Source of the DNA: Oscillospiraceae bacterium
GTDB lineage: Bacteria > Bacillota > Clostridia > Oscillospirales > Ruminococcaceae
Direction: 5' to 3'
Length of the DNA stretch: 35,299 bases
NCBI GenBank assembly: GCA_024699425.1
Contig: JAILPP010000064.1
Coordinates: forward strand, 1 to 35,299
Below the pieces are notes generated by a model. It was not told the origin of the DNA. It did not search any database and worked only from the letters and a program-made list of their open reading frames with translations. Position numbers and translations under genes: made by a program. Shown one piece after another: positions 16,887-35,299 of the stretch. How positions within the stretch are numbered: the first letter of the stretch is position 1; each line of letters starts with the position of its first letter.

Positions 16887-16955
16887 AGATACTGGGTGTT
16901 ACGCTTGCCTGAGAATGTGAAATTTTTCACAAAGTCAGCGTGACCGATCAAATAA

Positions 16956-17101
16956 CTATAAATGAGCGCAGACTGTCAGAATATACAAAAGCGATGCGGG
17001 TGCAGGGCGGTCACCGCCCTGCCGAGGGTGGGTGGGGGGCGAGTAGCCCCCCAATACCAGCCCGCAGCCTTGTATACTTTGCTAAGAATGCCCATTTATA
17101 G
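16956..17101 (+). repeat. 146-nt terminal-inverted-repeat element, copy 1, in the serC leader
   Basis: CTATAAATGAGC...GCCCATTTATAG ends; hairpins GCAGGGCGG-TCA-CCGCCCTGC and TGGGGGGC-GAGTA-GCCCCCCA; same length as copy 2. Confidence 0.85.
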
Positions 17102-17131
17102 CAAACAAAAACAATGTGGAGGTAACGACCA

Positions 17132-30749: not shown

Positions 30750-32195
30750 ATGGCAAAGAATGACAAGAAAATGGTAGATGCGATCACGTCTATGGACGAA
30801 GATTTCGCACAGTGGTACACGGACATTGTAAAGAAGGCGGAGCTGATCGCCTATACATCCGTCAAGGGCTGCATGGTCATCAGACCTTACGGCTATGCGA
30901 TCTGGGAAAATATTCAGCGCATTCTTGACGGGATGTTCAAGGAGACAGGACACGAGAACGTGAATATGCCCATGTTCATACCGGAGTCCCTGCTCCAGAA
31001 GGAGAAAGACCATGTTGAGGGCTTTGCGCCGGAAGTGGCATGGGTCACCATGGGCGGCAACAACAAGCTGGAGGAGCGCCTCTGTGTACGTCCGACTTCG
31101 GAAACGCTGTTCTGCGACCATTACAAGGACATTGTGCATTCCTACCGTGATCTGCCGAAGCTCTACAACCAGTGGGTCAGCGTAGTACGCTGGGAAAAGA
31201 CGACCCGTCCTTTCCTGCGTTCCCGTGAATTCCTGTGGCAGGAGGGTCACACCATTCACGCCACCGCACAGGAGGCAATTGAAGAGACAGAGAAGATGCT
31301 GAACGTCTACACGAAGTTCTGTGAATATGCGCTGGCAATGCCTGTTGTACAGGGCAAAAAGACGGAAAGCGACAAATTTGCAGGAGCAGTTTCGACGTAT
31401 GCGATTGAAGCGCTGATGCATGACGGCAAGGCATTGCAGGCAGGCACGTCCCACTATTTCGGAGACGGATTTGCCCATGCATTTGACATTCAGTATGCAG
31501 ACAAGGACAACACTCTGAAATACCCGCATCAGACGAGCTGGGGCGTGACCACAAGACTGATCGGCGCGATCATCATGACCCACGGTGACAATAACGGACT
31601 GGTACTGCCGCCCGCAGTGGCACCGATTCAGGTGGTGATCGTACCGGCAGCGATGCACAAGGAAGGCGTACTGGAGAAGGCAAACGAGCTGTATGCACAG
31701 CTCAGGGCAGCGGGCATTCGTGTCAAGCTGGACGACACGGACAATTCACCGGGCTGGAAATTTGCGGAATATGAAATGAAGGGTGTACCGGTGCGACTGG
31801 AGATCGGACCCCGTGACATTGCAGCGAACCAGTGTGTTCTTGCGACCCGTCACAACGGCGAAAAGACGAGCGTATCCCTGGACGGTCTGACCGAAGCGGT
31901 ACAGGCGAAATTGCAGGAAGTACACGACGGACTGTATGCAAACGCCCTTGCCAACCGTGAACGCCGCACATACCAGTGTCAGACGATCGACGAGATCAAC
32001 AAGGCGCTGACCGAGAACGGTGACGGCTTTATTGAAGCCATGTGGTGCGGAGAAGAGGCTTGCGAAGATGATGTAAAGGCACAGACAGGCGCAGGTTCCC
32101 GCTGCATTCCGCTGGTACAGAAGCAGCTTTCGGACAAATGTGTCTGCTGCGGCAAGCCTGCGAAGTGCATGGTACTGTGGGGCAAGGCATACTAA
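30750..32195 (+). CDS. proS: Prolyl-tRNA synthetase (archaeal/eukaryal-like type)
   Basis: LRPTSE-equivalent [60 protein letters not shown]-terminal zinc-binding-like region. Confidence 0.96.
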
Positions 32196-32198
32196 GAG

Positions 32199-32344
32199 CT
32201 ATAAATGAGCGCTGACTGTCAAAATATACAAAAGCGAGGGGGGTGCGGGGCGGTCCCCGCCCTGCGGGGGGGGTTTGGGGGGCGAGTAGCCCCCCAATAC
32301 CAGCCCGCTACCTTGTATATTTTGCTAAGAATGCTCATTTATAG
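32199..32344 (+). repeat. 146-nt terminal-inverted-repeat element, copy 2
   Basis: Perfect 12-bp TIR CTATAAATGAGC/GCTCATTTATAG, internal 12-bp stem CAAAATATACAA/TTGTATATTTTG, flanking direct repeats CTAAGAG(C). Confidence 0.9.
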
Positions 32345-32392
32345 CTAAGAGCCTGATTTCGGAAGGATTTATGACAGGATAAGGAGTAAGCT

Positions 32393-35236: not shown

Positions 35237-35299
35237 CTATAAATGAGCGCAGACTGTCAAAATATACACAAGCGATGCGGGTGCAGGGCGGTCACCGCC
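35237..35299 (+). repeat. 146-nt element, copy 3, truncated by the window end
   Basis: CTATAAATGAGCGCAGACTGTCAAAATATACACAAGCGATGCGGGTGCAGGGCGGTCACCGCC, nearly identical to copy 1. Confidence 0.85.

Follow-up and report, generated by a model that had tools for sequence, protein, structure and literature searches.

A probable MITE behind proS in a Ruminococcaceae genome, with ISBsm1-type ends and a hairpin cassette as its interior

The element at 32199-32344 of the window (here the whole stretch of 35,299 nt analysed, from contig JAILPP010000064.1 of an Oscillospiraceae bacterium) is, with a probability that we put at about 93%, a non-autonomous DNA transposon (MITE), for which an ISBsm1-type transposase would be supplied in trans by a full-length insertion sequence (IS) and whose interior is a cargo cassette. 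The element is short and without a transposase gene, has terminal inverted repeats and a target duplication of fixed length, and exists in many copies, and an autonomous IS with matching ends occurs in the same genus. A first-pass annotation made from the letters alone had left the choice between a mobile element that is non-autonomous and a structured RNA that is dispersed. The former is borne out by the many copies, the 7-bp duplications and the same-genus IS with identical ends; the latter holds in part for the interior, where the two apical hairpins form an independent covarying cassette, but not for the outer stems, which are transposon ends and a subterminal motif. The features of the window are as follows.

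32192..32198, + strand: left target site duplication CTAAGAG, containing the proS stop TAA (32193-32195); from the sequence and the 7-bp statistics of 24 copies
32199..32344, + strand: MITE copy 2, complete, 146 bp
32199..32210, + strand: left terminal inverted repeat CTATAAATGAGC, the same sequence that ends the 1342-bp IS in locus L092
32217..32234, + strand: left subterminal motif TGTCAAAATATACAAAAG; MITE copy L012 has TGTCAAAATGCACAAAAG, with GTCAAAATGCACAAAAG common to the right end of an IS of genome G017
32245..32265, + strand: cassette hairpin H1, GCGGGGCGG-TCC-CCGCCCTGC; covariation, and a covariance model match at 32239-32299
32276..32296, + strand: cassette hairpin H2, TGGGGGGC-GAGTA-GCCCCCCA; covariation and covariance model match
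32313..32324, + strand: right subterminal motif TTGTATATTTTG
32333..32344, - strand: right terminal inverted repeat (GCTCATTTATAG on the + strand)
32345..32351, + strand: right target site duplication CTAAGAG; from the sequence and the 7-bp statistics
16949..17108, + strand: MITE copy 1 (16956-17101) with its duplication CAAATAA / CAAACAA, one mismatch
35237..35299, + strand: MITE copy 3, cut by the contig end

The outer inverted arms (32197-32210/32333-32346) pair over 14 bp at 100% identity, comprising the 12-bp ends plus the flanking AG/CT, and the inner arms (32220-32231/32313-32324) pair over 12 bp, also at 100%. The perfect 12-bp terminal repeats, the second 12-bp stem and the two apical hairpins described earlier are thus all present in 32199-32344, and no ORF of at least 100 aa lies within it. 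The predicted fold has a free energy of -85.2 kcal/mol (z -6.7), and we read this multi-branched structure as two things overlaid on each other, namely transposon ends in the outer stems and a hairpin cassette in the inner ones. MITE copy 1 is 90% identical, with one mismatch in its right end. H1 of the window copy departs from the family consensus GCAGGGCGG-TCA-CCGCCCTGC. More generally, the cassette at 32238-32271 is off consensus at several positions, mostly changed to G, and similar changes are seen in L015 and L029; instead of true mutations, these are possibly a poly-G artefact that two-colour sequencing left in the assembly.

In the organism's own assembly (G000; 1.75 Mb in 152 contigs, 66% complete), BLAST at E<=0.001 returned 44 matches to the MITE. 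Allowing one mismatch, there are 70 occurrences of the end motif CTATAAATGAGC, compared with two of the reversed control. The element therefore has further copies well beyond the window, and its first description as a three-copy element was too low a count. One end motif in this genome, at L074:3032, proved unrelated. Length variants range from 52 to 256 bp. The shortest (L078 547-598, contig C91) has both ends and a one-mismatch 7-bp duplication without the cassette and is either an empty MITE or a deletion; longer copies at L017, L067 and L087 carry a nested module of about 50 bp and still have perfect 7-bp duplications. Several contigs start or stop inside a MITE copy, and as contig ends fall repeatedly inside repeats, the assembly is likely affected too. 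At L062 from position 533 onwards (contig C67), the left half of a MITE continues straight into apparent coding sequence near the contig end, as a truncated insertion or a chimeric contig. Outside this genome, only two weak matches were found among 198 genomes of the wider family, both in one genome, and neither the left end nor the cassette had an exact match in viral contigs.

Both ends could be paired for 24 copies, and their flanks were compared at each length from 2 to 12 bp with shuffled flanks. At 7 bp, the duplication is perfect in seven copies and has one mismatch in nine more, so that 16 of 24 have at most one mismatch, compared with means of 0.28 (perfect) and 0.87 (at most one mismatch) for shuffled flanks; all other lengths (2-6 and 8-12 bp) are at background in these copies. 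The 7-bp sequence varies from copy to copy. Because the duplications are 7 bp long and site-specific, the CTAAGAG flanks of the window copy are a true target duplication, the left one including the proS stop as had been noticed at first, and the earlier caution that the flank match could be coincidental falls away with the 24 paired copies. Eight of the 24 copies have no recognisable duplication, owing to end decay or deletion. Since the 146-bp copies diverge by 3-10% from their own consensus and nine of the 16 clear duplications contain a mismatch, recent activity is not demonstrated. In relatives, proS is followed at the same junction by the GH3 lipoprotein gene without the MITE of the window; these relatives are too diverged to display a base-exact empty site.

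A genus-wide search with the end motif revealed, in Ruminococcus sp. UBA3665 (G008, DFJS01000004.1), two inverted end motifs 1342 bp apart, and many end motifs in Ruminococcus sp. SIG535 (G017, SVNI01). The 1342-bp IS (L092 574-1915) has ends identical to those of the MITE at 12 of 12 positions and encodes an intact 406-aa DDE transposase (P0001). A transposase scan of genome contigs gave a single intact copy. The protein matches DDE_Tnp_1 (E 2.7e-16) and contains the motifs DDT, D.WY and YREK, the last as YAQRWEIEVFFRTVK with the full Y-2-R-3-E-6-K spacing. The IS is flanked by tatatta on its left (L092) and at the start of the contig holding its right flank (L093), and a second variant in G017 by ctcacat on both sides, joining L101 and L108; both duplications span contig ends, the joins being inferred from matching ends. 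The assembly that holds the window yielded no relative of this transposase, but at 66% completeness the absence is weak evidence.

The IS and the MITE also agree inside the terminal repeats. The subterminal AAAATGCACAAA of the IS corresponds to the inner stem of the MITE, and GTCAAAATGCACAAAAG is common to MITE copy L012 and the end of a G017 IS. The second 12-bp stem of the original description thus exists as a stem but corresponds to the subterminal motif of the partner IS, and most simply it would be part of the transposon end. Elsewhere in G017 (L097 4510-4795, contig C53), left and right IS end fragments directly adjoin each other, which suggests a deletion or nested insertion.

The placement of the partner IS was examined with protein models and with annotated elements. 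The best NCBIfam model for P0001 is IS701 at 133 bits, below the 150-bit cut-off, and IS4 models score lower. Among annotated plasmid proteins, those nearest to it are transposases of the IS701 family, with 33-37% identity along most of the sequence; one of them is named ISBsm1. The Geobacillus element annotated as 'IS701-like element ISBsm1 family' (CP128455.1) has ends CTGTAGATGAGC and the duplication TTACTGA, and a Priestia relative has the duplication TTATTAA. De Palmenaer et al. (2008, PMC2266710) describe IS701 as having a 4-bp target duplication and usually lacking the YREK tyrosine; for the ISPepr1 subgroup of IS4, they give duplications of 7-8 bp and YT-AA-YTT as the ends. As to IS701, the duplication is 7 bp instead of 4 bp in the MITE, the IS and the ISBsm1-type relatives, and the YREK motif of the partner is complete. 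The ISPepr1 subgroup was rejected, for its duplication length fits but the ends CTATAAATG do not. Because the traits of both groups differ from those of the partner IS, it is filed as ISBsm1-type, a group defined in this analysis from four plasmid relatives, of which two have the 7-bp duplication (the other two having none at the ends chosen) and two share the ends. The partner has ends CTRTARATGAGC, a 7-bp duplication and, like the group, a YREK transposase of about 390-406 aa; by these sequence features, it is probably an ISBsm1-type element within the IS4/IS701 superfamily and not a canonical IS701. It resembles annotated ISBsm1-type elements in its ends (CTGTAGATGAGC compared with CTATAAATGAGC), duplication, size of about 1350 bp and DDE transposase (33-37% identical), but it is only a distant relative of the annotated plasmid elements, and the MITE differs in having no transposase gene.

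In the mechanism that we propose, an ISBsm1-type DDE transposase from a full-length IS would recognise in trans the terminal CTATAAATGAGC and the subterminal TGWCAAAATRYACAAAA, move the DNA between the ends and insert it where the two target strands are cut 7 bases apart, which would give the 7-bp duplication. The present copies may have been mobilised in a host lineage by this IS or by one closely related to it. The interior would be cargo: two or three GC-rich hairpins forming a cassette, which spreads outside the ISBsm1-type MITE as well.

The cassette has a distribution of its own. It is present in other species, mostly without ISBsm1-type MITE ends, and the covariance model finds 93 copies in the organism's own genome and 88, 87, 56, 51, 45, 30 and 25 in seven other members of the genus, with none in 23 of 38 genus genomes. 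The covariance check proposed at the outset was run on H1 and H2 and gave strong covariation: in 20 sequences, 97.1% of pairs are standard and 10 of 19 pairs are changed on both sides, and the score is 0.427, compared with 0.156 for shuffled sequences and at most 0.129 for slid structures, although the sequences were picked for diversity and the score is not an unbiased estimate. In the two closest relatives (L130 in G011, L131 in G027), a free cassette lies downstream of proS in the proS-GH3 gap, oriented like the one that the MITE carries in the window; shared ancestry or coincidence may account for this. Several loci of G027 (L042, L045, L049, L190, L198) show chains of more GC-rich hairpins (e.g. 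GGGTCAAGGGGCGAG.AGCCCCTTGC) beginning with H1 variants, a hint that the genus may have a larger family of modular repeats.

The cassette is also housed in a second MITE. In G013, it lies inside an element of 134-136 bp with ends CAATGCTAACAACTTA, a 10-bp duplication and about 45 copies; five of 12 duplications are perfect, compared with 0.4 for shuffled flanks, and the end motif occurs 93 times, with none for the control. In G006, the same MITE holds other GC-rich hairpins in place of the cassette. The nested module of about 50 bp (TAAGCGACCAGC...GCTGGCTGTCTGCTTATGCC) is found in both MITEs, the ISBsm1-type one of G000 and the second one of G013, and its place in the cassette is the same in each; given as TAAGCAGACAGCCAGCGAGG...GCTGGTCGCTTA, it interrupts about 16 copies of G000, always at a single site that separates H1 from H2. 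The loci are as follows.

L161, L169-L178, L227, L228 (G013); L219-L226 (G006); L191 (G027): second MITE
L017, L057, L067, L069, L087 (G000); L227, L228 (G013): nested module

We tentatively suggest, at somewhat short of an even chance, that the GC-rich cassettes of this Ruminococcus clade are exchangeable cargo. Two or more MITE families, whose ends are unrelated and whose duplications measure 7 and 10 bp, would have acquired the same covarying cassette, with the same nested module at the same position, and one of these families carries different local hairpins in another species.

The strong fold (z -6.7) and the covariation of H1 and H2 could also mean that we are dealing first of all with a structured RNA in dispersed copies, a cis-regulator or small RNA whose fold is under selection. 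In line with this, none of 121 cassettes lies inside predicted genes, although 84% of the sampled DNA is genic by a simple codon-usage caller that was checked on the window, and the ISBsm1-type MITEs show a weak tendency to point the same way as their tandem neighbours (14 vs 4, p 0.03). However, free cassettes are unbiased by strand (19 vs 14, p 0.49), placement in tandem genes is near background and the neighbouring genes differ. The outer stems belong to the transposon, as ends bordered by target duplications, and the covarying sequences were hand-chosen. Scans of the element for promoters and intrinsic terminators found none. At the gathering threshold, Rfam matched nothing in the window except a tRNA, so that in this catalogue the element has no family; PhotoRC-I hits in related loci (search to E<=1) scored 18-22 bits against a threshold of 45 and were taken as chance. 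We consider such an RNA unlikely as the primary nature of the element.

The cassette might instead be a REP/REPIN moved by a RAYT (Y1) transposase, with the MITE built around it. Intergenic GC-rich palindromes of which eight members of the genus have 25-93 each, found also free of MITE ends, would suit such an origin, and free cassettes do resemble REP, BIME and REPIN in this respect, but the cassette consists of two or three different hairpins, inspection by eye showed no conserved GTAG/CGTC tag at their foot, and Y1_Tnp (PF01797) had no match in 14 genus genomes, including all eight with 25-93 copies, under a search that detected its positive controls. A REP/RAYT origin was rejected on the missing transposase, and we give it very little probability. 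Marginally less probable still is that the short copies arose by internal deletion and decay from the IS and are not a MITE family multiplied as such. Their ends and subterminal motif do match the IS; yet past about 45 bp no likeness to it is visible by eye, and many copies have equal length and a common non-IS interior. These, together with separate 7-bp duplications, indicate that the short form itself transposed repeatedly, as the MITE reading has it.

Known bacterial MITEs such as RUP, NEMIS/Correia, ERIC, EFAR, Nezha (PMC3733652) and MITEPye1 (PMC11578231) are likewise short, geneless and intergenic, with terminal inverted repeats, target duplications and stem-loops. They have other ends and another transposase family, and the cassette of the window MITE occurs also free and in a second MITE family. 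Literature searches found no described MITE for Ruminococcus. As a MITE for which a partner IS group is identified, the window element is of an ordinary type; what is unusual is its exchangeable hairpin interior.

The analysis provides a catalogue-ready MITE for Ruminococcus with an identified partner IS group, and it suggests that IS701 has an ISBsm1-type branch in which 7 bp are duplicated instead of 4 bp. If the exchange of cargo is true, MITEs would spread host-specific structured elements, and a hairpin interior would have been favoured repeatedly, by a transfer route not yet known. One cassette, found free and in two unrelated MITE families, offers a testable case of part exchange among the small repeats of gut bacteria, and it bears on how such repeats reach intergenic spaces.
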